Shown here: in pieces, positions 46,462-59,666 of the stretch
Numbering within the stretch: the first letter of the stretch is position 1
Layout: every line of letters begins with the position of its first letter
Assembly (NCBI GenBank): GCA_035606695.1
Contig: DATNEW010000026.1
Location: forward strand, 62,001-126,000
DNA from: Gemmatimonadaceae bacterium
GTDB taxonomy: Bacteria; Gemmatimonadota; Gemmatimonadetes; Gemmatimonadales; Gemmatimonadaceae
DNA length: 64,000 nucleotides
Direction of reading: 5' to 3'
Notes under the pieces: generated by a model
The model's database searches: none
Seen by the model: the letters and a program-made list of their open reading frames with translations, nothing else
Told to the model about the DNA's origin: nothing
Program-made: the position numbers and the translations under genes

Positions 46462-48882
46462 CTACTCCAACCGCATCGCCGTCAGCGGATCGACCCGCGA
46501 CGCTCGCACCGCCGGTACCAAGCTCGCCGTCAACGCCGCGAGCACGATCAGCGTCGTGACGCCAATCCATGTCGCCGGATCGTGCACGCCGATGCCGTAC
46601 AGCATGCCTGCCACGAATCGCGTGAGCAGCGACGCCGCGACGAGGCCGACTGCCACGCCCGTCGCCGCGAGCTTCGCGGCGTCCCACAACACCATGCGCG
46701 TGACGTCGCCGCCCTTCGCGCCCAACGCCATGCGAATACCGAGCTCGCGCGTTCGCTGCGCGACGCCGTACGACATCACGCCGTACACACCGGCCGACGA
46801 GAGCAGCGTCGCGAGAATCGCGAACACGGCGAGGAGCGACAGCGTGAGCTTGCGTGCCTGGAGCGATTCGGACATCACCTGCTCCATCGATTCCAGCTGC
46901 GCGATCGGTTGATTCGGCGCGATGTCGTGAATGACCTGGCGCACTGAGGGCACCAGGGCCTCGGGATCGCCCTGCGTCGCGACGAGCATCGTCATGTTGC
47001 CCAGCTGCCACGGCTGCTGCGCGGCCGGAACGTAAATGCCCGGGGACGGCGTGCCCTCGAGCCCCGCTTCGCGAATGTCGGCCGCGACGCCGACGATCGT
47101 CGCCGGCTTGTCGGTCCACGGCATCAACTGGTGGCCAATCGGATTGTCGGTGAAATACTTCTTCGCGAACGTTTCGTTGATCACCACCACCGGTTGCTGC
47201 CCAAGGACGTCGGCGTCGGTGATACCGCGGCCCGACTTGATCGTGATGCCGAACGTCCGGAAAAAGTCGGAGCCGACCACACGGAACTCGCCGAACGGCT
47301 GCCGCGTCGGATCCGTCTCCGTCGGCCTTCCCACGATTTCGAAGCTGCCGTTCGTCCCCCAGCTTTGCGCCGGCAGAAGCGAGATCATCGACACGCTGCG
47401 CACGCCTGGAATCGCGCGCAGACGATCCGTCACCGGGCCGAAGAATCCAGTGTAGCGCGCGCTGTCACCGAACTGTCCCGTGGGCGCCGACACCTTGAAC
47501 GTCAGCAGGCGATCGGTCTTGAAACCCGGATCGGTATTCACGACGGCGACGAACGCGCGAACCACGAGTCCCGCACCAATCAGCAGGACCACCGAGAGCG
47601 CGATCTCCGTGGCGATGAACGTGTTGAGCGTGCGATGCTGCCGCCGGCTCGTGCCGCCGCGGCCCGCGGTCTCGGTGAGATCCTGCCGGAGATCGACGTC
47701 GCTCGAGCGCAGCGCCGGCACGATGCCGAACACGATTCCCGTGACGCACGAAACGCCGAACGCGAACAACAAGACGCTGGCATTGAGATGGACCGTCTCC
47801 GCCCGCGGGAGCGCGGCCGCGGCATAGGTGAGAATTGCGTGCAGTCCCCAGTAGGCCACGAGTAAGCCGAGCAACCCGCCGCTCACGGCGAGCAGGATGC
47901 TTTCCGTCAACAGCTGTCGAACGAGCCGTGCGCGCTCGGCGCCGAGCGCGGTGCGAATTGCCACCTCACGCGTGCGACCGGCGGCACGCGCGAGCAACAG
48001 ATTCGCGACGTTCGCGCATGCGATGAGCAGCACCATGCCCACCGCGCCGAGCAGCAGCATGAGCGTCGGGCGAACGCGGCCGACAACAATGGTGTTGAGC
48101 GGCACCATCTGCAGCAGGCGATCCTTCTGCTGATCGGGAAAATCGCGCGCGAGCTGTTTGGCGAGTGGATCGAGCCGCGCGTTCGCGGCGACCGAGTCGA
48201 TGCCCGGCCTGAGCCGCCCGACGACCTGCAGCCAATGACTGCCGCGCTGCTTGAGATTATCGGGCGTGAACACGAGCGGCACCCACACGTCGTTGTGCGA
48301 GGCGGAGATCGGGAAATCGAACGTCGACGGCATGACGCCGATCACGGTGAACGCCCGATTGTCGAGTGAGATCGTTTGGCCGATGAGGTGTGGATCGCCC
48401 GCGTAGCGTCGGCGCCAGAAGCCTTCGCTCAGAATGGCGACGTCGTGTCCGGCCTGATCTTCGCCAGGCGCGAAGGTGCGGCCGATCAACGGCCGCGATC
48501 CGAGCACATCGAAGAACTCGGCGGTCGCGCGGACCTGTTTCACACGTTCGGGCTGGCCAGTGCCGCCGAGGTCGGCGCCGCCGCCATTGTACGCGGCCAT
48601 CGATACGAACGCCGTGTTCCGTGCCTTGATGTCGAGGTAATTGGGCACCGACACCGACCCGAGGCCGCGCTTGCCGTTGTAGATCCCGGCTTCGTACAGC
48701 TTGGCGAGATGCGATGGATCGCGATACGGCAGCGACTCCAGCAGGACGGCCCGAACGACGGTGAAGATCGCGGTGTTGGCGCCGATGCCGAGGGCCAGGC
48801 AGAGGATCGCGATGGCGGTGGTGCCGCGCTGCTTGCGGAGCGAACGCGCGGCGAAGCGGAGGTCCTGGAGAAGCGTGTCCAT
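46462..48882 (-). CDS. ADOP-family ABC transporter permease (FtsX/MacB-like)
   Basis: An 806-residue inner-membrane permease with two MacB-PCD/FtsX units. Each has a signature: LRFAARSLRKQRGTTAIAIL near the start, then a periplasmic domain, helices around 280-420, the second PCD domain (about 470-660), and the final FtsX block with GVYGVMSYGVAQRTRELGIR and SRVDPLTAMRLE at the C-terminus. ADOP proteins are abundant in Acidobacteria and Gemmatimonadota and are thought to export substrates or act with a separate ATPase, which is absent here. It starts 54 bases from the divergent SDR gene. Confidence 0.95.
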   Translation of the reverse strand: MDTLLQDLRFAARSLRKQRGTTAIAILCLALGIGANTAIFTVVRAVLLESLPYRDPSHLAKLYEAGIYNGKRGLGSVSVPNYLDIKARNTAFVSMAAYNGGGADLGGTGQPERVKQVRATAEFFDVLGSRPLIGRTFAPGEDQAGHDVAILSEGFWRRRYAGDPHLIGQTISLDNRAFTVIGVMPSTFDFPISASHNDVWVPLVFTPDNLKQRGSHWLQVVGRLRPGIDSVAANARLDPLAKQLARDFPDQQKDRLLQMVPLNTIVVGRVRPTLMLLLGAVGMVLLIACANVANLLLARAAGRTREVAIRTALGAERARLVRQLLTESILLAVSGGLLGLLVAYWGLHAILTYAAAALPRAETVHLNASVLLFAFGVSCVTGIVFGIVPALRSSDVDLRQDLTETAGRGGTSRRQHRTLNTFIATEIALSVVLLIGAGLVVRAFVAVVNTDPGFKTDRLLTFKVSAPTGQFGDSARYTGFFGPVTDRLRAIPGVRSVSMISLLPAQSWGTNGSFEIVGRPTETDPTRQPFGEFRVVGSDFFRTFGITIKSGRGITDADVLGQQPVVVINETFAKKYFTDNPIGHQLMPWTDKPATIVGVAADIREAGLEGTPSPGIYVPAAQQPWQLGNMTMLVATQGDPEALVPSVRQVIHDIAPNQPIAQLESMEQVMSESLQARKLTLSLLAVFAILATLLSSAGVYGVMSYGVAQRTRELGIRMALGAKGGDVTRMVLWDAAKLAATGVAVGLVAASLLTRFVAGMLYGIGVHDPATWIGVTTLIVLAALTASLVPAVRASRVDPLTAMRLE

Positions 48883-49679: not shown

Positions 49680-50996
49680 ATGTCGACGAGCTCGAACTCC
49701 GAACGCATTCGCACGCCGGAAGAGCCGGCGGATGTCGGACTCCGCGAGTTGATGGCGGTCCGGGAGGTGGCGCACGCCTTCCACACCGCCAAGCGGCCGG
49801 AAGAGGTGTTCCAGATCGCGCTCGACCGGGTGAGCCCGCTGATCGGCGCCACGTTCGCGTGTGTCTTCGCGGTCGGCGAGGGCGAGGACAACATGCACCT
49901 GGCCGCGGTGCACAACTGGCCGCAGCGCTACGCCAAGTTTCTTCGGCAGATGCGCGTGCGGCTGGGCGCGGGCCCCAGCGGACAAGCGGCGAGCGAACGC
50001 AAGTTGATCGAAGTACCGGACGTGTTCGCGGACGCCGGCGCGGGCGATTGGCAGGAAGTCGCGATGGAGCTCGGATTCCGGTCGATCGTCGCGCTGCCGC
50101 TGCAAGCCGGCGACACGGTGCTCGGCGCCCTGACGTTTTACTTCGCTTCGCCGCGCGCGATCGGACCCGACTCACGGCATTTGATGCGGATCGTCGCCGA
50201 TCAGATGGCGGCATCGGCCGAGAAGGCGCGCTTGATCCAGAATCTGGAACAAGCGAACGCGGCGCTCAGCACGAGCAACGCGGAGCTCGAGCGGCAATAC
50301 GCCGATCTCCTCGAAGCGCGGCGCGTCAAGGATGAATTCCTCTCGAACATCTCACACGAGCTGCGCACGCCGCTCACGGCCGTGATCGGCTACATTTCGC
50401 TCATGCAGGAAGGGCTTGCCGGTCCCATGACCGACGAGCAGCAGAACACGCTCGATCAGGTCAAGGGGTCGAGCGAGCAGCTGCTCTCGCTGATCGGCGA
50501 TCTGCTCCAGCTCACGGCGCTCAAGCGCGGCGACGTCGAGGCGGCCTTCTCGGACGTCGATCCGCGGCAGCCGCTGCGCGATGCGGTGGCCGCGACCACG
50601 CCGCGCGACGGCGTGACGCTCGACGTGCGCGAGCCGAGCGACGTGCCGATGATGCGTACTGATGCGCGGCTCGTGACGCGAACGTTGCGCGCGCTGCTCG
50701 ACAACGCGGTCAAGTTCACGCGTGAAGGGAGCGTTCACGCGTCGCTGCACGTCGACGGCGATCGGGTCGCGTACGTGATCGAGGATACGGGAATCGGTAT
50801 CCCCGAGGACGCGCACCGGTTGGTGTTCGAGGAGTTTCGGCAGGTGGATGGTTCGACCACACGCGAGTTCGGCGGCTCGGGACTTGGTCTCGCGCTCGCT
50901 CGGCGGCTTGCGCGGATGCTGCACGGAGACATTTCGTTGACGTCGTCGCCCGGTCAGGGCTCGACGTTCCGGTTGGAGTTACCACTGAGGTCGTGA
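49680..50996 (+). CDS. Cytoplasmic sensor histidine kinase with GAF domain
   Basis: A 438-residue protein without membrane helices. A GAF domain (about 25-185, with FACVFAVGEGED) senses an unknown small molecule or redox state. A coiled coil leads to HisKA with the phosphoacceptor H226 in SNISHELRTPLTAVIGY. The ATPase domain has N-box LRALLDNAVKFT, G1 EDTGIGIP and G2 GGSGLGLALA. No response regulator lies nearby. Only seven bases separate it from the following gene, so it could be cotranscribed with the MoxR operon. Confidence 0.93.
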   Translation: MSTSSNSERIRTPEEPADVGLRELMAVREVAHAFHTAKRPEEVFQIALDRVSPLIGATFACVFAVGEGEDNMHLAAVHNWPQRYAKFLRQMRVRLGAGPSGQAASERKLIEVPDVFADAGAGDWQEVAMELGFRSIVALPLQAGDTVLGALTFYFASPRAIGPDSRHLMRIVADQMAASAEKARLIQNLEQANAALSTSNAELERQYADLLEARRVKDEFLSNISHELRTPLTAVIGYISLMQEGLAGPMTDEQQNTLDQVKGSSEQLLSLIGDLLQLTALKRGDVEAAFSDVDPRQPLRDAVAATTPRDGVTLDVREPSDVPMMRTDARLVTRTLRALLDNAVKFTREGSVHASLHVDGDRVAYVIEDTGIGIPEDAHRLVFEEFRQVDGSTTREFGGSGLGLALARRLARMLHGDISLTSSPGQGSTFRLELPLRS

Positions 50997-51003
50997 TACA
51001 CGC

Positions 51004-51285
51004 ATGCACAGCGCACAAACCCTTCAGGAAACTGTCACGAGCCTGAGCGGCGACGAAGTCGTGTCGCGCGCCAAGGCCTTCTTCTCGAATCGTCCGACGC
51101 TGTATGCGGCGTTCATCGATCGCGAAGGTCCGAGCTTCGTGTCGTTTCGCGGCCAGGGCACGGAAGAGCTGGTGATCGGCGTCGCGCCGGCTGATGGTGG
51201 TGGCACGCGCGTCACCGGATCCACGTACCTCTTCGACATGCAGGTGTCGCGTTTCTTCGCGACGCTGCCGCCGGTGGGCGCGTGA
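51004..51285 (+). CDS. Small hypothetical protein, first gene of the MoxR operon
   Basis: A 93-residue soluble protein I cannot place. An N-terminal helix (LQETVTSLSGDEVVSRAKAF) leads to a beta-rich part containing AAFIDREGPSFVSFRGQGTE and TRVTGSTYLFDMQVSRFF. It could be a small ligand- or protein-binding module. The ATGA overlap with the ubiquitin-like gene shows that both are produced together. Confidence 0.7.
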   Translation: MHSAQTLQETVTSLSGDEVVSRAKAFFSNRPTLYAAFIDREGPSFVSFRGQGTEELVIGVAPADGGGTRVTGSTYLFDMQVSRFFATLPPVGA

Positions 51286-51614
51286 TGAAGGCGCCGTTCG
51301 TCTCGAACCTTCGCGCGCGCAAATCGACGATCACCCTCGCGCCCGAGGGCGCCGCGGACGCGATCACCATCCGCGTCGAGATGCCTGAAGTGTGGGACGT
51401 CGTGCGCATCGTCGTGCTGCCCACCGACAGCGTGCTCGAGGTGAAACAGCGCGCGCTCGCCGCGTTGTATCCCGAGAGCGACGTCCTCGAGGAGTTCGTG
51501 CTCAAGCTGCGCGGCTGGGTCGTGCTCGACGAGATGGCGTCGCTGGCGGACGCCGGCGTCGTGAACGGATCGATCCTGCTGCTGACGCACCGCCGGCGCC
51601 GGCCGGTGCGGTAG
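51282..51614 (+). CDS. Ubiquitin-like beta-grasp protein
   Basis: A 110-residue protein. After an N-terminal extension (about residues 1-30), VRIVVLPTDSVLEVKQRALA and FVLKLRGWVVLDEMASLADA, then GVVNGSILLLTHRRRR, follow the ubiquitin layout: first strand, helix with xEVKxx, strand ending in a Gly-containing turn, LxDxxSLxDxGIxxGSxLxL. The C-terminus is Arg-rich (RRRRPVR) with no GlyGly, so conjugation in the eukaryotic way is not expected from this form. It is encoded between a small unknown protein and a MoxR ATPase. A YukD-like scaffold role is one alternative. Confidence 0.7.
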   Translation: MMKAPFVSNLRARKSTITLAPEGAADAITIRVEMPEVWDVVRIVVLPTDSVLEVKQRALAALYPESDVLEEFVLKLRGWVVLDEMASLADAGVVNGSILLLTHRRRRPVR

Positions 51615-51624
51615 CCGCTCGCGC

Positions 51625-52644
51625 ATGGCGGCCGTACCGGCAACACTCCTGTCACGACGGGACGCGCTGGTGGCGGCCGCGGGGCGGCTGCGCGCCGAAG
51701 TACGGCGTCGCATCGTCGGTCAGGAGCAAGTGCTCGACGAGCTGCTCGCGGCGCTCATCGCCGGCGGCCACGCGCTGCTCGTCGGCGTTCCGGGACTTGC
51801 AAAAACTCTAATGGTCCGCTCGCTCGCCGAAGCGGTCCATCTCGATTTCCGGCGCATTCAGTTCACGCCCGATCTCGTGCCGAGCGACATCACGGGCACC
51901 GAGATTCTGGAAGAAGACTCGGCGACGGGCGGCCGCAGCTTTCGCTTCGTGCGCGGGCCGATCTTCGCCAACATCGTGCTCGCCGACGAGATCAACCGCG
52001 CGCCGCCGCGCACGCAGGCCGCGCTGCTCGAAGCGATGCAGGAGCATAGCGTGACCGCGAGCGGCGACACGATGCGCCTGCCCGAACCGTTCTTCGTGCT
52101 CGCGACGCAGAATCCAATCGAGCAGGAAGGCACTTACCCGCTGCCCGAAGCGCAGCTCGATCGCTTTCTGTTCGACATTCGCGTCGGCTACCCGCGCGAG
52201 GATGAAGAAATCGCCATTCTCCGCAGCACGACCGGCGTGAACAGCGAGTCGATCGCACCGGTACTCGGCGCCGACGAGCTGCTTGCGCTCCAACAGCTCG
52301 CACGCGAAGTCGTCGCGAGCGAATCGGTGCTGCGGTACGCGGCCGCACTGGTGCGCGCGACGCGTCCCGATGAATCCGCCGCGCCCGAGCTGGTGCACCA
52401 GTACGTTCGCTGGGGCGCCGGTCCGCGCGCCGGCCAATCGCTGGTGCTTGGCGCCAAGGCCAACGCGCTGCTCGACGGGCGACTCGCCGTGTCGCCGACC
52501 GACATCAAGCGCGTTGCGCGTCCGGTGTTGCGGCACCGCGTGCTGCCGAACTTCGCCGCCGAAGCCGAGGGCGTGAACGTGGAACGGATCATCGAGGACT
52601 TGCTGGCGCGTATCGAGCCGCCGCGCAGCGACATTCGCGTGTGA
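51625..52644 (+). CDS. MoxR-family AAA+ ATPase
   Basis: A 339-residue AAA+ chaperone. Walker A is GVPGLAKTLM (about residues 54-63) with the family's A in place of G. Walker B is NIVLADEINRAPPRTQAALL, and the sensor region is FFVLATQNPIEQEGTYPLPE, with the C-terminal lid VLRHRVLPNFAAEAEG. MoxR enzymes work with von Willebrand factor A proteins, and the following DUF58 gene supplies one. CTA-ATG codons at 51808-51813 form a low-GC patch. Confidence 0.95.
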   Translation: MAAVPATLLSRRDALVAAAGRLRAEVRRRIVGQEQVLDELLAALIAGGHALLVGVPGLAKTLMVRSLAEAVHLDFRRIQFTPDLVPSDITGTEILEEDSATGGRSFRFVRGPIFANIVLADEINRAPPRTQAALLEAMQEHSVTASGDTMRLPEPFFVLATQNPIEQEGTYPLPEAQLDRFLFDIRVGYPREDEEIAILRSTTGVNSESIAPVLGADELLALQQLAREVVASESVLRYAAALVRATRPDESAAPELVHQYVRWGAGPRAGQSLVLGAKANALLDGRLAVSPTDIKRVARPVLRHRVLPNFAAEAEGVNVERIIEDLLARIEPPRSDIRV

Positions 52645-53510
52645 CCATCACCCGGTACGGCGCGCTCCTCGACGCCGTGCGCGGCGTGCGCTGGCCGGCG
52701 CGGCACGCGGTGTCGAGCGCGGTGGTCGGAGCGCATCACTCCCGAACGCGCGGGACGTCGGCCGAGTTCACGGAGTATCGCTTGTATCGGCAGGGCGATG
52801 ATCCGCGGCGTCTCGATTGGCGGCTGCTCGCGCGGAGCGATCGCGCCTACATCCGCCTCGCGAACGATCGCGCGGTGCTTCCGACGATGATCCTGCTCGA
52901 CACGTCGGCCTCGATGGCCTATCCGATTCTGTCGCGTCTCAAATGGATTCACGCGCAGAATCTTTCCGTGGGACTTTCCGCGGTCGCTCACGCGGAGGGC
53001 GACCCGGTCGGCGTCGCATTGCACGATGCACGCGGGCACGTTCGCGTGCTGCCACCGCGCACACGACGCAGCGTCGTCGACGAGATCGCGCGCGTCGTGG
53101 ACGCGGCAGATCCCGACGGACTCGAGCCGCTCGCGCCCGTGCTCGCCGCGCTGCGTGCACCGCGGATCGTCATCGTCACCGACATGCTCGGCGATTCGGA
53201 CGACATGCTGCGCGCCGCGCGTGTGCACATCGTTGGAGGCGGAGAAGTGCATCTCGCGCACGTCGTCGCCGAAGAGGAGCTCGAACCGCCGCGCCGTACG
53301 CTGCTGGCCGCCGATCCCGAGCTGCCGGGCGTGCAGCGTTTGCTCGCCGATGCGTCGCGCCGAGACTATCAGAATGCGTTCGGCGAATGGCGCGCCGAGA
53401 TCGCGCGTCTCTGGCGGGCGGCGGGCGCGGCGTACACTGAAGTGGTGACCGATGAGCCGGCGTCGCACGCGGTGCGCCGCATCGCCGGCGGGGTCGGAGT
53501 GGCGTCGTGA
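52641..53510 (+). CDS. DUF58 / von Willebrand factor A-like protein
   Basis: A 289-residue MoxR partner. The DUF58 signature FTEYRLYRQGDDPRRLDWRL is followed by a vWA domain with a MIDAS-like DTSASM (D-x-S-x-S) at about residue 91. The C-terminal half lacks a membrane segment. It starts with GTG overlapping the MoxR stop, and its own stop overlaps the next start, indicating strict coupling. Confidence 0.93.
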   Translation: MTITRYGALLDAVRGVRWPARHAVSSAVVGAHHSRTRGTSAEFTEYRLYRQGDDPRRLDWRLLARSDRAYIRLANDRAVLPTMILLDTSASMAYPILSRLKWIHAQNLSVGLSAVAHAEGDPVGVALHDARGHVRVLPPRTRRSVVDEIARVVDAADPDGLEPLAPVLAALRAPRIVIVTDMLGDSDDMLRAARVHIVGGGEVHLAHVVAEEELEPPRRTLLAADPELPGVQRLLADASRRDYQNAFGEWRAEIARLWRAAGAAYTEVVTDEPASHAVRRIAGGVGVAS

Positions 53511-54778
53511 GCTGGTTGCTTCCATCGGCCCTTGGCGTTGGCGCGGCTGCGCTCATCGGTCTCGTGGCCGTGCACTTCATTGCGCGCAGCAGACCGATCG
53601 CCGAGCCGCTGCCGACGGCGCGATTCATTCCGGAGCGCGCGATTCGTGCGCGCACGCGCTCCTACGCATTGAGCGACATCGTGTTGTTGCTGCTGCGCGC
53701 GCTGGCGATTGTCGCGATCTGTGCCGCCGTTGCCGCGCCGGCGTTCTCGACGACGCATGGGCGAACGGCGCGCGTGATCGTCGCCGATCGATCGCGCGAC
53801 GTCGCGAGCATCGGAGAAGTGCGAGACAGCGTTCGCGCGCTCGCGCGCGCCGGTGACGTCATCGTACCGCTCGACAGCGCCGCGAGCCGTCGCGTGCGTG
53901 CCACGGATTCGCTGGTCCAGAGCGATGCGCGCGGTTCGCTCTCGGCAGGATTCGCCGAGGCGATGCGCGCCGGGGCGGAGTTGGCGCGCGCGAACGATTC
54001 TCTCGAGCTGATCGTGGTCTCGCCGTTCGCGCGCGAGGAGATTGATCATGCGACCGCACGAATTCGCGCCGCATGGCCAGGGCGGGTGCGGTTGGTTCGT
54101 GTCGCACCTCGTCCGATCGCCAGCGCTGGCACGGTGCCGCGCGTCGAGATCAGAGCCGATACGAACGACGCGGTCGCCGCCGGGCTTGCGCTTGCCGGCT
54201 TTGTTTCAACTGACGGCGCCGCGACCGTTCGCGTCGTGCGCGACAAGCTGACGACGGCCGATTCCGCGTGGGCGACCGCGAGCGGTCACGTACTCGTGCA
54301 CTGGCCGGTCGCGGAGGCCGACGCCGATTGGCCGACGCGTCGTACGATCGACGCGATCGGCGGCGTCGTCTCGACGAGCGGTGTGCTCGTCGCACGCTTG
54401 CCGCGTTTGTGGGTGCTGAATGGGACGGCGATCGCGCGCTGGGCCGATGGTGAGATCGCCGCGATGGAGCGTCCAACGGGCGGCGGCTGTATTCGCCACG
54501 TTGGCGTGTTGATTGATGAATCGAGCGACGTGACGTTGCGACCGCCGTTCCGGGACTTCGCGCGCGGCTTGCTTGCACCGTGCGGCGGCGACGCAACGTT
54601 CGCGGTTGCTGATTCCACAACGCTCATATCGCTTGGCGGCGCCGGCCCGCTCGCGCCGGCAGCCCAGCTCCGCGACGACGGGACTCGCTCGCGGTGGACG
54701 CCGTGGCTGCTGGCGTTCGGCGCGCTGGTGCTGATCGCCGAGCTCGCGGTGCGTCGCGGACCGGCGCGGACGACATGA
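53507..54778 (+). CDS. BatA-like membrane protein with degenerate vWA domain
   Basis: A 423-residue protein with an N-terminal membrane helix pair (LLPSALGVGAAALIGLVAVH; later IVLLLLRALAIVAICAAVAA), as in the BatA/aerotolerance N-terminal domain. A vWA-like region with VIVADRSRDVASIG follows, whose MIDAS is incomplete. A periplasmic domain precedes a final helix (WLLAFGALVLIAELAV). It is the membrane module of the MoxR operon. Its stop overlaps the next gene. Confidence 0.82.
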   Translation: MSWLLPSALGVGAAALIGLVAVHFIARSRPIAEPLPTARFIPERAIRARTRSYALSDIVLLLLRALAIVAICAAVAAPAFSTTHGRTARVIVADRSRDVASIGEVRDSVRALARAGDVIVPLDSAASRRVRATDSLVQSDARGSLSAGFAEAMRAGAELARANDSLELIVVSPFAREEIDHATARIRAAWPGRVRLVRVAPRPIASAGTVPRVEIRADTNDAVAAGLALAGFVSTDGAATVRVVRDKLTTADSAWATASGHVLVHWPVAEADADWPTRRTIDAIGGVVSTSGVLVARLPRLWVLNGTAIARWADGEIAAMERPTGGGCIRHVGVLIDESSDVTLRPPFRDFARGLLAPCGGDATFAVADSTTLISLGGAGPLAPAAQLRDDGTRSRWTPWLLAFGALVLIAELAVRRGPARTT

Positions 54779-56814
54779 GCGTCTTCGCACGGCTGCGCAT
54801 GGTGCGCGTGATTCTCGGCGTTGGTATTACCGTGCGCGCGGTCGCGTGGGGGATCGTCGCCGCGCTGTCGCTGGTCGCCGGCGCGGCGATCGCCGATGCG
54901 TTCGTCGATCTGTCGGTGGGTTCGCGACGGTCGCTGCTGCTCATCGCGGTGGCGTCGGCGGTGATCACGGCCGCGGCGCTCGCATGGCGCGACCGCCGCG
55001 TGTCGTCGCTGCTGCGCGTCGCGCTGTGGATCGAGGAGCGAGAACCGGCGTTGCAGTTCGCGCTCGCGTCGGCGGTGGAGACGGGAGACGAGCGTCTCGT
55101 TCGCGCGGGCGGGAGCGATCGGTGGACGCGAAGCGCCATTCGTCGCGCGCTTCGGGCCGTTGCGATTCCGCTTGCCGCTGGAATCGCCGCGGTCGTCGTC
55201 TTGTTCGCCCTGCCTGCGGGCGCGGTAGCTCGAATTCGATCGCCGCGCGCCGGCGACGCTCTCGCGCGCGGGGGCCCGCGCCCGCCGGGCGCGTCGCGGC
55301 TGTCGCCGCTGATCGCGCGCCTCCAGCCGCCGGCGTACACCGACAGCGCGGCGACGACGATCGACGACCCCGCGGACTTGCGCGTCGTCGTCGGCAGCAC
55401 TGTCGTGCTGGAAGGACGCGGCGATGCGGCGGGAATTGTCGCGATCACCGGCGGCGATGCCCTCGCCGCGTCATCGCACGGCGATCGCTGGTCAGTCACG
55501 GTTCGTGTTTCGAAACCTCTGACAGTTCGCCTGCGCGACGGGCCGGATCAGCGTCTCGTCGCGATCGAGCCGATCGCGGACAATCCGCCCACGGTGACGC
55601 TCACCGCACCGGCGCACGATTCGGTGCTTCGCGCCGCGCGCGGCCGTCTGATCCTGTCGGCCGACGTGAGCGACGATTTCGGACTCGCGAGCGCCGCGTT
55701 CGAATACATCGTGAGCTCCGGCGAAGGCGAAACGTTCACATTCAAATCCGGAACGCTTGGCGCGCGGCCCTTGCACGGAGCACGCGCGACGTTCGTCGCG
55801 TCGCTGCCATTCGACTCGTTGCCGCTCAAGCCGGGCGACATCGTGCACCTGCGCGCGGTGGCGCGCGACGCGAACAACGTCACTGGTCCCGGCATCGGTG
55901 CATCGGAAACACGAACGATTCGCATCGCACGCGCCGATGAGTACGACTCGGTGGCCGTCGATGCCGTGCCGCCCAGCGAGGCGGACAAGAGCTTGATCAG
56001 CGAGCGAATGCTGATCCAGCTCGCCGCAGCGCTCGAGAAGCGGCGCCCGTCGCTCGCGCGCGACACGCTCGTCCGCGAATCGCACTCGATCGCCGTCGAT
56101 CAAAAGCGGTTGCGCCGCACCGTCGGCGAGATCGTGTTCTCGCGACTTGGCGAGCCGACGGGCGAAGAGCATACCGACGACGAATCGCCCGCCCGCGCGA
56201 AATCGATGGAAGAGTTGATCGCGCGCGCCGACTCGGCGACCAATCGCTCGACCGATCCGATCGACTTCGCCGGTGGTGAGAGCCCGGTCGTCGCGACGAA
56301 CAAGCCGTTGCTCGAGGCGTACAATGCGATGTGGGACGCGAGCACCGAGCTCGAGCTCGGGCAGCCCGGCCGCGCGCTGCCGCACATGCGTCTCGCGCTC
56401 GCCGCGATTCAACGCGCGCGGCAAGCCGAGCGTCTCTATTTACGCGGACAGCCGCCACCGGTGGTGATCGATCTCGCGAAGGTGCGGCTTACGGGCAAGG
56501 ACAAGGGCGGGTCGAGCGCGCGGCGCCCGTTGACCGCGGTGGATTCCACGCGCGTCATGTTGACGACGCGGCTGCTGCGCATTGCCGAGCTCTCGGCGCG
56601 CGATACCCGAGCGGCACTCGACTCCTTGCTCGTGCTGCGCATCGCGGCGTTGTCGGTCGAGCCGGCGTTTGCGACGGCGGTGGGCGATGCCGCCACGGCG
56701 ATGCGTTCCGGCAACGGCGTCCGTGCGACCACCGCCTTCGTGCGAGCACGCCGCGCGCTGGCCGGCGCGCCGGCCGCGCGCGACTCGCTGTCGCGCTGGG
56801 GACTGATGCCATGA
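54775..56814 (+). CDS. DUF4175-like large membrane-anchored protein
   Basis: A 679-residue protein. Three helices near the N-terminus (about 17-37, 45-65, 130-155) precede a large periplasmic region with beta-rich Ig-like parts (about 180-380, LSPLIARLQPPAYTD and DNPPTVTLTAP), then a helical C-terminal region with ERMLIQLAAALEKRRPSLAR. This layout is that of the DUF4175 proteins next to MoxR/DUF4159 genes. The function is unknown, probably scaffold. It overlaps both neighbours by four bases. Confidence 0.78.
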   Translation: MSVFARLRMVRVILGVGITVRAVAWGIVAALSLVAGAAIADAFVDLSVGSRRSLLLIAVASAVITAAALAWRDRRVSSLLRVALWIEEREPALQFALASAVETGDERLVRAGGSDRWTRSAIRRALRAVAIPLAAGIAAVVVLFALPAGAVARIRSPRAGDALARGGPRPPGASRLSPLIARLQPPAYTDSAATTIDDPADLRVVVGSTVVLEGRGDAAGIVAITGGDALAASSHGDRWSVTVRVSKPLTVRLRDGPDQRLVAIEPIADNPPTVTLTAPAHDSVLRAARGRLILSADVSDDFGLASAAFEYIVSSGEGETFTFKSGTLGARPLHGARATFVASLPFDSLPLKPGDIVHLRAVARDANNVTGPGIGASETRTIRIARADEYDSVAVDAVPPSEADKSLISERMLIQLAAALEKRRPSLARDTLVRESHSIAVDQKRLRRTVGEIVFSRLGEPTGEEHTDDESPARAKSMEELIARADSATNRSTDPIDFAGGESPVVATNKPLLEAYNAMWDASTELELGQPGRALPHMRLALAAIQRARQAERLYLRGQPPPVVIDLAKVRLTGKDKGGSSARRPLTAVDSTRVMLTTRLLRIAELSARDTRAALDSLLVLRIAALSVEPAFATAVGDAATAMRSGNGVRATTAFVRARRALAGAPAARDSLSRWGLMP

Positions 56815-57455
56815 AACGGCTCATGGCACCCATCATGAGCGAATTCGTAAGCGAATTCGTATTCGCCACGGCGCAATACGAATCCGGCGACTGGGACAGC
56901 GCGCCGCTCCTGCCCGCCAACATCATCGATACGATCGCGCGTTACACCGAGATCAACGTCGCGCCGACGGGCGTCATCGTCCCGCTCTCCGACGAGCGCA
57001 TGCTGCGGTACCCGCTGCTGTATCTGACCGGCCACCTGCCGGTGCGATTCAGCGATGCCGAGCGGCGGAATGTGCGGCGGTTCGTCGCGCGCGGCGGGTT
57101 GCTGTTCGTCGACGACCACAACCACGACGTCGACGGCACGTTCCACCGGACGGCGACGGAAGAGATCGCGCGCACCGTCGCTCCGCTCGCCGACCTGCCG
57201 AACGATCATCCACTCTATTCAGCATTCTTCAAGTTCGAGGGTCCACCCACAACGAGCCACGAGCTCAATGGCTGGGGAGACAATCTCGTGCACAAGCATC
57301 TATTGGCTGTAGAGCACGCCGGTCGTATCGGCGTGCTCTACAGCAGCAAGGACTATAGCTCCGAGTGGAACTATCATCCCGACAGCAAGCGATTCATGTC
57401 GGTGGACAACACGCGCTTCGCGGTGAATCTGGTGGTGTATGCCCTCACCGCGTAG
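56811..57455 (+). CDS. DUF4159 family protein
   Basis: A 214-residue soluble-looking protein. FVFATAQYESGDWDS starts the domain, and RFVARGGLLFVDDHNHD resembles the glutamine-amidotransferase-like (class I) fold with a degenerate active site. The C-terminal SSKDYSSEWNYHP ends the domain. In other bacteria DUF4159 occurs with MoxR-vWA genes. Near the start there is a short duplication (SEFVSEFVF). It overlaps the next gene by 17 bases. Confidence 0.85.
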   Translation: MKRLMAPIMSEFVSEFVFATAQYESGDWDSAPLLPANIIDTIARYTEINVAPTGVIVPLSDERMLRYPLLYLTGHLPVRFSDAERRNVRRFVARGGLLFVDDHNHDVDGTFHRTATEEIARTVAPLADLPNDHPLYSAFFKFEGPPTTSHELNGWGDNLVHKHLLAVEHAGRIGVLYSSKDYSSEWNYHPDSKRFMSVDNTRFAVNLVVYALTA

Positions 57456-58743
57456 CCGCTTCGAATCCGCCTGTCGCATCGGCGCATTCGCGCTGCTCGG
57501 CTGGCTGCTCGGCGGGAGCTTCATCGGCTCAACGGTTCGGCGCGTCGAGCACGTGCAGGCATGTGACAAAAACTTGTCTCCATGTGACAAGAATTTGTCT
57601 GCTCGGCTGGCGGAGCTGTCGCGAACGTCGGAGGCTGTCGCGATTCACCTCGACGCCACGAGCGCGCCCGCACCGTGGGCGACGGATTGGCTGGCCGCGC
57701 TCGCGCATGCCGATGTCGCCGCCGCGCACTCCGTGTCGTGGAGCGGCGCGCCCGCTGCCGTCGCGATGAGCGTGCAGCCCGTGCCCGATCCACGCCGCGG
57801 CGCGCGGATCGACATCGCGGCGCCGACGGGTGCGCGCGTTCGCCTGCGCGACGACGCGAGCGACATCGACAGCGCACAGGTCATGGACTTGGGCGTCACG
57901 CTCACCACGCCGCTCGTTGTCGGTGCGTTGCGCGCGGACGTCGGCGGGCAATCAGTGATCGCGAACACCCACGATACGAGCTCCATCCGCGGCGTGCTCG
58001 TCGTGGGCGCGGCGGGGTGGGAAGGCAAGTTCATCGTCTCGGCGCTCGAGGAGCGTGGGTGGCGCGTCGTCACGCGCTTCGTCGTCGCGCCGGGCGCGGA
58101 CGTGACGGGGGGCGGCGCGGCGCCGCTCGACACGAATCGTTTCGCGGCCGTGATTGCGATCGATTCCACCGCGCAGGCCATGAGTGGCGCGATTGAGCGA
58201 TTCGTTCGCTCGGGTGGTGGACTCGTGCTCGTCGGACCGGCCGCAAATGCGCGCGCGTTCTCCGAGCTCGCGGCGGGAAGCGCGGGCGTGCGCACGCGCC
58301 CACGCGTGCAGGCGAACGATACGATCCGTCTCGGCACCACCGGTTTTTATCCCGTCGCGCGGCTGCGACCCGGCGCGCTCGCGCTGGAGCGCCGCGGTGA
58401 CGCCATTGTCGTCGCGGCACGCCGGGTCCGTGCGGGGCGCGTGATGCAGATCGGCTACGACGACACGTGGCGGTGGCGCATGGCCGGCGAAGCGGGGTCG
58501 GAGGAGGCGCATCGCGAATGGTGGTCGCGCGTCCTGCGATCGGTGGCGTACGCGCCCGTCTCGATGTCGAACGCGCTCGACGTCGGCGAGAGCGCACCGC
58601 TCGCCTATCTCACCGATCGGCTCGGCGCGCCCCGGCCCGCGCCGCCAGCGCGTCGCGGCACCGATCCGCGAATTATCATAACGCTCATAATGGTTCTCTT
58701 ATTGATGGAATGGGGCTCCCTGCGGCTGCGGGGGCTGCGATGA
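57439..58743 (+). CDS. Membrane-anchored BatA/ThuA-like protein of the MoxR operon
   Basis: A 434-residue protein with one N-terminal helix (IGAFALLGWLLGGSFIGS), a periplasmic region resembling a GATase-like fold (GGLVLVGPAANARAFSEL; VVGAAGWEGKFIVSALEE), and a C-terminal helix (IIITLIMVLLLMEWGSLRL). It is the last membrane component before the deacetylase. Residues about 43-54 are encoded by a 21-bp direct repeat and read CDKNLSPCDKNLS. Its stop overlaps the deacetylase ATG. Confidence 0.75.
   Translation: MPSPRSRFESACRIGAFALLGWLLGGSFIGSTVRRVEHVQACDKNLSPCDKNLSARLAELSRTSEAVAIHLDATSAPAPWATDWLAALAHADVAAAHSVSWSGAPAAVAMSVQPVPDPRRGARIDIAAPTGARVRLRDDASDIDSAQVMDLGVTLTTPLVVGALRADVGGQSVIANTHDTSSIRGVLVVGAAGWEGKFIVSALEERGWRVVTRFVVAPGADVTGGGAAPLDTNRFAAVIAIDSTAQAMSGAIERFVRSGGGLVLVGPAANARAFSELAAGSAGVRTRPRVQANDTIRLGTTGFYPVARLRPGALALERRGDAIVVAARRVRAGRVMQIGYDDTWRWRMAGEAGSEEAHREWWSRVLRSVAYAPVSMSNALDVGESAPLAYLTDRLGAPRPAPPARRGTDPRIIITLIMVLLLMEWGSLRLRGLR
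57560..57600 (+). repeat. Two tandem 21-bp units with internal hairpins inside a gene
   Basis: CATGTGACAAAAACTTGTCT (57560-57579) is followed one base later by CATGTGACAAGAATTTGTCT (57581-57600). Each carries a GACAA...TTGTC dyad. AT content is much higher than the flanks. The repeat keeps the frame and adds CDKNLSP-type residues to the surrounding protein. It looks like a recently amplified or inserted motif. Confidence 0.75.
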
Positions 58744-59666
58744 CCATCGCGTTCATCTCCAACTCCGACTGCGGGCGGCATGATACCGGTTGGGGGCATG
58801 CCGAGCACGTCGGGCGGCTGCGCGCGATACCGTCGGCGCTGCGCGAGCACCCGGAGCTCATCGGTCGCATTCACCACGTGGAATCGCGACACGCCACGGT
58901 GGACGAGCTCGCGCTGGCACACGATCGCGCGTACATCGAGACGGTCCGCGCGATCGTTGCGAGCGGCGGAGGACAGCTCGACGTCGATACGGTCGCGAGC
59001 GAAGGATCGTGGGACGCCGCGACGGCCGCGACCGGCGCGGTGCTCGACGGGTTGGACTTCGCCTTCGGAGCCGGACCGCGCCGCAGTTTTTGCGGCGTGC
59101 GTCCTCCGGGACATCATGCCGTGCGCGATCGCGCGATGGGTTTCTGTCTCTTCGGCAGCGTCGCGATCGGCGCGCACTATGCGCGCCGGCATCACGGCGC
59201 CGAACGCGTGTTGATCGTCGACTGGGACGTGCATCACGGCAACGGTACGCAGGCGCTCGTCGAGGACGACCGCGACATTCGATTCATCTCCATGCATCAG
59301 TGGCCGTGGTATCCCGGCACCGGTGCGGCCGACGATCGAGGTCCCCACGCGAACGTCTGGAATCGTCCGATGCGCGCGGGTCTGCCCGCATCGGTCTACG
59401 TCGACACGCTCGAGCGGGCGATCGACGAGGCGACCGCCGACTTTACGCCGGACATCGTGCTGATCTCCGCCGGCTTCGACTCACTCGCCGGCGATCCCCT
59501 CGGCGGCTTCACGCTCGAGTACGAGCACGTCGAACAGCTGACGCGCGGATTGGTCGAACGCGCCGAGCAGTGGTGCGGCGGCCGGGTGGTGAGCGCGCTC
59601 GAGGGAGGGTATGCGCCTCAGCGGCTCGCTCAGGCCTGCGTGCATCACATGCTGGCGCTCGAATAG
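58740..59666 (+). CDS. Histone deacetylase / acetylpolyamine amidohydrolase family enzyme
   Basis: A 308-residue zinc-dependent deacetylase of the AcuC/AphA/HDAC superfamily. RPPGHHA holds the catalytic His pair, DWDVHHGNGTQ the zinc Asp/His, and ISAGFDSLAGDP the second Asp. These match class II-like members such as HDAH and polyamine deacetylases. The substrate may be acetyl-lysine, acetylpolyamine or another amide. The ATG overlaps the previous stop, so it is the final gene of the coupled MoxR operon. Confidence 0.92.
   Translation: MTIAFISNSDCGRHDTGWGHAEHVGRLRAIPSALREHPELIGRIHHVESRHATVDELALAHDRAYIETVRAIVASGGGQLDVDTVASEGSWDAATAATGAVLDGLDFAFGAGPRRSFCGVRPPGHHAVRDRAMGFCLFGSVAIGAHYARRHHGAERVLIVDWDVHHGNGTQALVEDDRDIRFISMHQWPWYPGTGAADDRGPHANVWNRPMRAGLPASVYVDTLERAIDEATADFTPDIVLISAGFDSLAGDPLGGFTLEYEHVEQLTRGLVERAEQWCGGRVVSALEGGYAPQRLAQACVHHMLALE

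Follow-up and report, generated by a model that had tools for sequence, protein, structure and literature searches.

Bacterial relatives of ubiquitin are mostly sulfur carriers, conjugated tags encoded in defence operons, or parts of secretion systems. The established chemistry of ubiquitin-like activation is the adenylation of a terminal glycine, and MoaD and ThiS need a GlyGly end. Bacterial ubiquitin-like proteins that are not conjugated are already known, namely YukD, RnfH and TmoB. In Escherichia coli the gene for RnfH (rnfH/yfjF), a ubiquitin-like protein with a basic C-terminus, follows ratA and the two genes overlap. Whether RatA acts as a ribosome toxin or as a Coq10-like lipid chaperone is disputed (PMC11988751). 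YukD is reported as unconjugated (Iyer et al. 2006, PMC1779556). In eukaryotes, the ubiquitin-like domain of SF3A1 reaches into an RNA groove with its basic RGGR tail (PMC13213911). Genes for MoxR and for ubiquitin-like proteins of conjugation systems are mentioned together by Kaur et al. 2020 (PMC7159879).

Here we describe a gene for a ubiquitin-like protein (UBL) encoded in a 64,000-nucleotide stretch of DNA (the window) from the 5.9-Mb genome of a Gemmatimonadaceae bacterium (G000). The protein is spread throughout its order together with an unstudied partner. Its tail excludes the usual chemistry, whereas a glycine still ends the proteins of sister lineages. In the literature on Gemmatimonadota ubiquitin-like proteins, and on MoxR together with UBL and DUF58, no description of the pair came to light (subscription papers being largely outside the scope of this search), and the passages retrieved from Iyer et al. 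2006 and Kaur et al. 2020 contain none.

The gene and its predicted fold

The first-pass annotation of the window, made from the sequence alone, had proposed a bacterial ubiquitin-like protein on the plus strand at positions 51282–51614. An open reading frame is indeed present there, starting with either GTG at 51282 or ATG at 51285 (110 or 109 aa) and ending in ...LLLTHRRRRPVR-stop, with THRRRRPVR as the last residues. It begins where an upstream open reading frame of 93 aa (51004–51285, plus strand), referred to below as small93, has its stop codon. Homologues of UBL were detected in 90 of the 98 related genomes and 54 of the 58 genera of the order-level survey, and a phylum-wide sample of 297 genomes contained 180 with a homologue; one scan of the whole genome collection covered the best 80 matches. 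In an alignment of 58 diverse homologues the mean column identity was 42%, with Trp37 (58/58 sequences), Lys74 and Gly77 invariant. The codon for Trp37 (51393..51395) falls in the loop joining the first two core strands (PEVWD), and codons 74–77 (K-L-R-G), which include those for Lys74 and Gly77, occupy positions 51504..51515. This conservation and the variation of tail codons described below bear out the proposed reading frame, which is a real gene beyond chance. UBL is a near-universal, single-copy gene of Gemmatimonadales. A second, distinct ubiquitin-like protein is encoded elsewhere in one genome (G019; L213:3062-3481) and matches DUF2604 with 36 bits, above the cut-off; this separate paralogue was removed from the 126 loci surveyed, leaving about 125.

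AlphaFold2 modelled UBL with a mean pLDDT of 91.8 and a pTM of 0.82, with the strands and the helix in the expected order. Foldseek searches with this model gave 343 matches at E≤0.001, and the top 50 were mostly ubiquitin-family entries; ubiquitin, ubiquitin variants, NEDD8, ISG15, SUMO, SF3A1-UBL and BilA-Ubl (1.9 Å) were among the matches, with TM scores of up to ∼0.86 on the target. A profile of the 58 homologues compared with the PDB matched tetra-ubiquitin (E 9e-9, a value helped by the repeats), 5zmb (1.5e-4), single ubiquitins (∼1e-3) and the bacterial BilA Ubl (4e-3). The designed toroid repeat proteins 5byo and 4yxz, retrieved by phmmer from the PDB, were set aside as sums of weak repeat matches. 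On the strength of these three lines of evidence, namely AlphaFold2, Foldseek and profile matches, the modelled UBL is a member of the ubiquitin-like beta-grasp superfamily with a beta-beta-alpha-beta-beta core. The resemblance to ubiquitin noted in the annotation was thus upheld, and the structure prediction and comparison suggested there returned the beta-grasp fold. The assignment of the individual elements needs minor adjustment: the helix VLEVKQRAL corresponds to approximately residues 50–58 of the 109-aa form; LRGWVVLDEMASLADAGV, given as the end of a strand, comprises a strand, a loop and a turn ahead of the last strand; and within NGSILLLTH only ILLLTH approximates the last strand.

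Taken as a single sequence, the window protein matched Pfam weakly, its nearest families (YukD, DUF2604 and ubiquitin) all remaining below their cut-offs. YukD, which scored 21.3 bits against a cut-off of 27, is the Pfam family matched by most members (37/58, best E 3.5e-7), and this affinity would suit an accessory protein of type VII secretion, similar to YukD/EsaB. No FtsK/EccC-like neighbour was seen, and WXG100 proteins were absent from all 10 genomes searched; the control, Bacillus subtilis, was positive. Given the absence of WXG100 proteins in addition to the sub-threshold score of the window protein, we rejected such a role, which we regard as extremely improbable; the ESX context that the annotation had mentioned is unsupported. 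The defence context fared no better, PADLOC giving no match for either UBL or small93.

The C-terminal tail and glycine-ended relatives

Alignment with hhalign places Arg105 of UBL opposite Arg74 of ubiquitin. When this ungapped alignment is extended over the last two tail positions, Gly75-Gly76 of ubiquitin correspond to Arg106-Pro107, with Val-Arg lying beyond; the tail RRRRPVR (51591..51611, plus strand) thus replaces RLRGG of ubiquitin. The same alignment matches the invariant Lys74 and Gly77 to Ile44 and Gly47 of ubiquitin, respectively, Ile44 being the centre of ubiquitin's main binding patch. None of 123 distinct Gemmatimonadales homologues has a terminal glycine or a GG within the last four residues; the annotated absence of a C-terminal GlyGly, read from the RRRRPVR end in the window, holds for all of them. 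Glycine is missing from the last eight residues in 120 of these 123 proteins, proline stands at position –3 in 104, the last residue is arginine or lysine in 106, and the last nine residues contain on average 4.5 arginines or lysines. The arginine codons of the tail vary (CGC, CGG, CGT, CGA and some AGG or AGA), and the residues they specify are constant; therefore, the tail is under protein-level selection. With a glycine-free end, the usual activation chemistry (adenylation, thiolation and conjugation) cannot apply to UBL.

Relatives with a different end are found outside the order. In families f7 and f9 of the class, a UBL gene whose product is clearly related to this one by reciprocal profile matches lies directly after a relative of small93. 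All 20 of these UBLs (L258–L277) terminate in glycine, with the pattern [FY]xG-stop and once FGG-stop; ATG12 and UFM1 likewise end in a terminal glycine. An E1-type gene is situated 1–7 kb from the pair, in varying orientation, in seven f7 genomes, and no such gene was seen near the pair in one f7 locus (9 kb) or in the f9 loci. In G163 the E1-type gene shares its reading frame with a ThiS-like domain and has a JAB gene before it. The arrangement of JAB followed by an open reading frame combining a ThiS-like domain with an E1-type ThiF was observed at G060:C47, G064:C2, G163:C1, G186:C1 and G193:C1 (L288–L292, L216–L222); these genes form a sulfur-transfer set of ubiquitin-like type that is distinct from the UBL under study.

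The glycine-ended sister proteins and their nearby E1-type genes, together with the presence of an E1-type ThiF protein in 10 of the 10 genomes tested, speak for a UBL that is still an active modifier or sulfur carrier in Gemmatimonadales, perhaps by way of tail trimming or an unusual linkage. Against this stands the composition of the tail: since the last eight residues are free of glycine in nearly all homologues, trimming cannot expose a GG, and the conservation of the tail up to its last residue argues against its removal. In addition, E1, E2 and JAB were not recognised within ∼6 kb of UBL in the Gemmatimonadales loci read, the E1 of the window genome is on another contig, and the JAB match of that genome is below the cut-off. 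We therefore hold an active modifier or sulfur carrier to be very unlikely, and the conjugation operon considered in the annotation did not materialise in Gemmatimonadales, where neither an E1 nor a JAB gene was found near UBL.

Neighbouring genes and their conservation

The gene neighbourhood survey, which the annotation had recommended, identified small93, a gene absent from the annotation's account, as the constant partner of UBL, and adjacency to MoxR was not conserved. Of 125 distinct Gemmatimonadales loci, 124 have a counterpart of the small93 gene (51004..51285, plus strand) directly upstream of UBL; the two genes overlap by 4 nt in 116 of the 123 loci measured. Its product is better conserved than UBL (mean 52%, nine invariant columns), carries the motif R-G-Q-G-G/T-E-E and a C-terminal F-D-x-Q-x-x-R-F-x-x-T-L-P helix, and matched no family in Pfam or NCBIfam. 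AlphaFold2 predicts a beta-alpha-4beta-alpha fold (pLDDT 91.6). The Foldseek matches of this model were all weak, the best being to KA1 domains of protein kinases with TM scores of 0.73–0.74 on the query (2zfd, E 1.6e-3, query TM 0.73; 4yom, query TM 0.74), followed at lower TM by SRPBCC/START-type proteins. Judging from these models, small93 may tentatively be described as a short KA1/START-like domain, ambiguous between KA1 and START. No conserved cysteine occurs in the columns that are invariant or nearly so; therefore, small93 is neither an E1 nor an E2.

Gene order, overlap and the size class of UBL all match ratA-rnfH, and both ubiquitin-like proteins have basic tails, which invites the view that small93 and UBL are the counterpart of RatA-RnfH in the literal sense, a pair that regulates ribosomes or behaves like a toxin and its antitoxin. 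However, hhalign assigned a probability of 0.2 to both proteins, that is, no detectable sequence relation; toxin-antitoxin systems are not single-copy genes carried by nearly every member of an order, as this pair is; and whether RatA is a toxin at all is contested (PMC11988751). A literal equivalence is in our opinion improbable. Homology to RnfH and RatA was rejected on the basis of the hhalign result and the lack of a match of UBL to Pfam RnfH (PF03658), and the comparison is kept as an analogy of layout.

The two genes were seen apart in a few cases. In genus g13 (L205, L206 and further genomes) and at L158 the UBL gene is gone and small93 adjoins the deacetylase gene; small93 kept in this way is either useful without UBL or a remnant. 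At L042 (G086) UBL lacks small93 upstream and is preceded by a gene for a multi-pass membrane protein. With one genus possessing small93 only and one genome UBL only, the pair is not strictly obligate. As for the proteins themselves, the invariant Lys74 of the Gemmatimonadales UBL is an invariant glutamate in the UBLs of f7 and f9, and the Glu54-Glu55 pair of the Gemmatimonadales small93 does not survive intact in the partners linked to f7/f9 UBLs, in which arginine is common nearby. This difference between two clades could reflect an exchange of charge across a putative interface, a weak hint drawn from the alignments; a mirror-tree comparison of small93 and UBL distances, with the deacetylase as control, lent no specific support to their coupling.

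Relatives of small93 are not confined to UBL. In families f6, f7 and f9, one lies directly upstream of MoaD, MoaE and MoaA in 16 of 19 loci (L165–L171, L173–L181), in some with a 4-nt overlap, and the small-UBL and small-MoaD pairs coexist in several f7 and f9 genomes. No small gene was recognisable beside the Gemmatimonadales MoaD in the genomes with ThiS/MoaD loci that were examined. MoaD is itself a beta-grasp protein; therefore, the association looks specific to beta-grasp proteins, and the small family is likely to be dedicated to them. The UBL pair may have arisen by duplication of the small-MoaD pair; in the tree of the small family, grouping of the UBL-linked members as one clade apart from the MoaD-linked ones received an AU p of 0.245. 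A fuller history, which we offer tentatively and consider somewhat doubtful, would have the small93 family as the partner of beta-grasp proteins and UBL as the descendant of an E1-handled glycine form, such as sister families still have, the end of which was lost in Gemmatimonadales, leaving a non-covalent, arginine-tailed adaptor. If true, nature would here provide an example of departure from a conjugation or sulfur-transfer pathway by a ubiquitin-like protein. The survey also flags two unannotated families of small proteins, one of which is found in molybdopterin operons as well.

On the other side of UBL, the window contains the gene for a MoxR AAA+ ATPase (51625..52644, plus strand; Pfam AAA_3 with E 3e-63, and AAA_lid_2), which begins 10 nt after UBL. 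It is the first member of a cassette, the remainder of which (52641..58743) consists of plus-strand, head-to-tail overlapping open reading frames: DUF58 (52641–53510), a BatA-type protein (53507–54778), a large membrane protein (about 54766–56814), DUF4159 (within 56739–57455) and a final membrane protein (57439–58743), with DUF58, BatA and DUF4159 assigned by Pfam. A class II histone-deacetylase-like gene, so named from the appearance of its sequence, follows at 58740..59666 on the same strand. Upstream of small93, a plus-strand gene encodes a GAF-HisKA-HATPase sensor kinase (49680..50996; Pfam) that is present at this place in many, not all, of the relatives covered by the neighbour survey, and further upstream a large ABC-type efflux permease, MacB/FtsX-like by eye and probably ordinary, is encoded on the minus strand (46462–48882).

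Adjacency to MoxR, on which the annotation laid weight as an undescribed association, is therefore real in the window and uncharacteristic of the order. Of the ∼125 distinct Gemmatimonadales loci, 66 continue after UBL with the deacetylase and 49 with MoxR; the remaining loci end too early or carry another next gene. In the sister families f2 and f3, UBL is followed by the deacetylase at 20 of 20 loci and by MoxR at none. Even within Gemmatimonadaceae, the MoxR-DUF58-BatA-DUF4159 cassette stands between UBL and the deacetylase in 25 of the 47 loci, these being from sampled genomes with enough downstream sequence. Adjacent and co-directional genes, as in the window and in the single-contig genome G026, are what would recommend UBL as an adaptor that brings substrates to the MoxR ATPase or regulates it. 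Yet one species of the window's own genus (G004, L007/L307) has UBL followed by the deacetylase and no MoxR cassette within 16 kb, genus g7 (L013, L016, L125, L131) has the cassette genes for DUF4159 and the last membrane protein on the other side, upstream of small93, and the tail is identical in UBLs with and without a MoxR neighbour. Together with the counts above, these observations leave little room for a MoxR adaptor, and as a general partner MoxR was ruled out by the survey. The simplest history starts from small-UBL-deacetylase as the ancestral order, beside which the MoxR cassette, a unit of its own, came to lie in some lineages; proximity to MoxR is then a chance feature of the window's lineage or, at the most, an association of secondary origin.

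The deacetylase itself deserves consideration, as the small-UBL-deacetylase order is shared across three Gemmatimonadales families and, in the analysis of distance covariation, UBL tracks the deacetylase as strongly as it tracks small93 (UBL-deacetylase partial r 0.53). Small93 and UBL might then assist the class II deacetylase, for instance if they hand it an acylated substrate. We consider this unlikely: the distance correlation may reflect shared ancestry, in the other families of the class no deacetylase was observed after the pair, and genus g13 combines small93 and the deacetylase without UBL.

A proposed role and comparison with known systems

Our preferred reading is a non-covalent small93-UBL adaptor, to which, taken as a whole, we give even odds; any particular target of UBL is less probable than that. 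Small93 and UBL would be translated together from their overlapping genes, most likely forming a putative complex. UBL, having no terminal glycine, would work non-covalently, as an adaptor. The face of its sheet that is equivalent to the Ile44 patch of ubiquitin (with Lys74, Gly77 and also Trp37) is the probable binding site for small93 or for a target, and the arginine-rich tail ending in Pro-Val-Arg may dock on an acidic surface, most likely RNA or the ribosome or else another protein, a guess made from its charge. The MoxR cassette would be a separate unit, which in some lineages came to stand between UBL and the gene for the deacetylase. The adaptor model gains plausibility from two precedents, the ratA-rnfH layout of E. 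coli and the basic tail of the SF3A1 domain. The protein also gives concrete form to the question of how a member of the ubiquitin family is put to use once the reactive end is missing, and by what route such a protein is withdrawn from its former function.

Among the described systems, RatA-RnfH (PasT-PasI) of beta- and gamma-proteobacteria resembles the locus in layout, with a START-type gene followed by an overlapping UBL gene whose product has a basic, glycine-free tail. A gene in the equivalent place, directly upstream of UBL and mostly overlapping it, recurs here throughout the order; the START-like fold match of its product small93 is weak, and the 93-aa protein fits KA1 as well as START. 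Furthermore, the two systems belong to different phyla, profile comparison shows no sequence relation between them, and smpB was not recognised in the stretches read. YukD, EsaB and the N-terminal UBL of EccD (PF08817) share with the window protein a ubiquitin fold without GlyGly, but their family cut-off is not reached by it and its host genomes have no WXG100 proteins (10/10). MoaD and ThiS share the beta-grasp fold, and MoaD also the upstream relative of small93 in other families of the class, whereas UBL ends in Arg-Pro-Val-Arg and has no Pfam match to ThiS/MoaD (PF02597). The MoxR-vWA systems differ in that the MoxR-UBL adjacency is not conserved here. Ubiquitin and conjugated relatives such as BilA have the fold, the core length and the place of the tail in common with UBL, which lacks both the GG and an E1/E2/JAB operon and carries an invariant lysine instead of Ile44. 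Finally, the ubiquitin-like domain of SF3A1 is eukaryotic and sits inside a large splicing factor; its basic tail is a functional element in RNA binding (PMC13213911) and offers a putative parallel for the tail of UBL.
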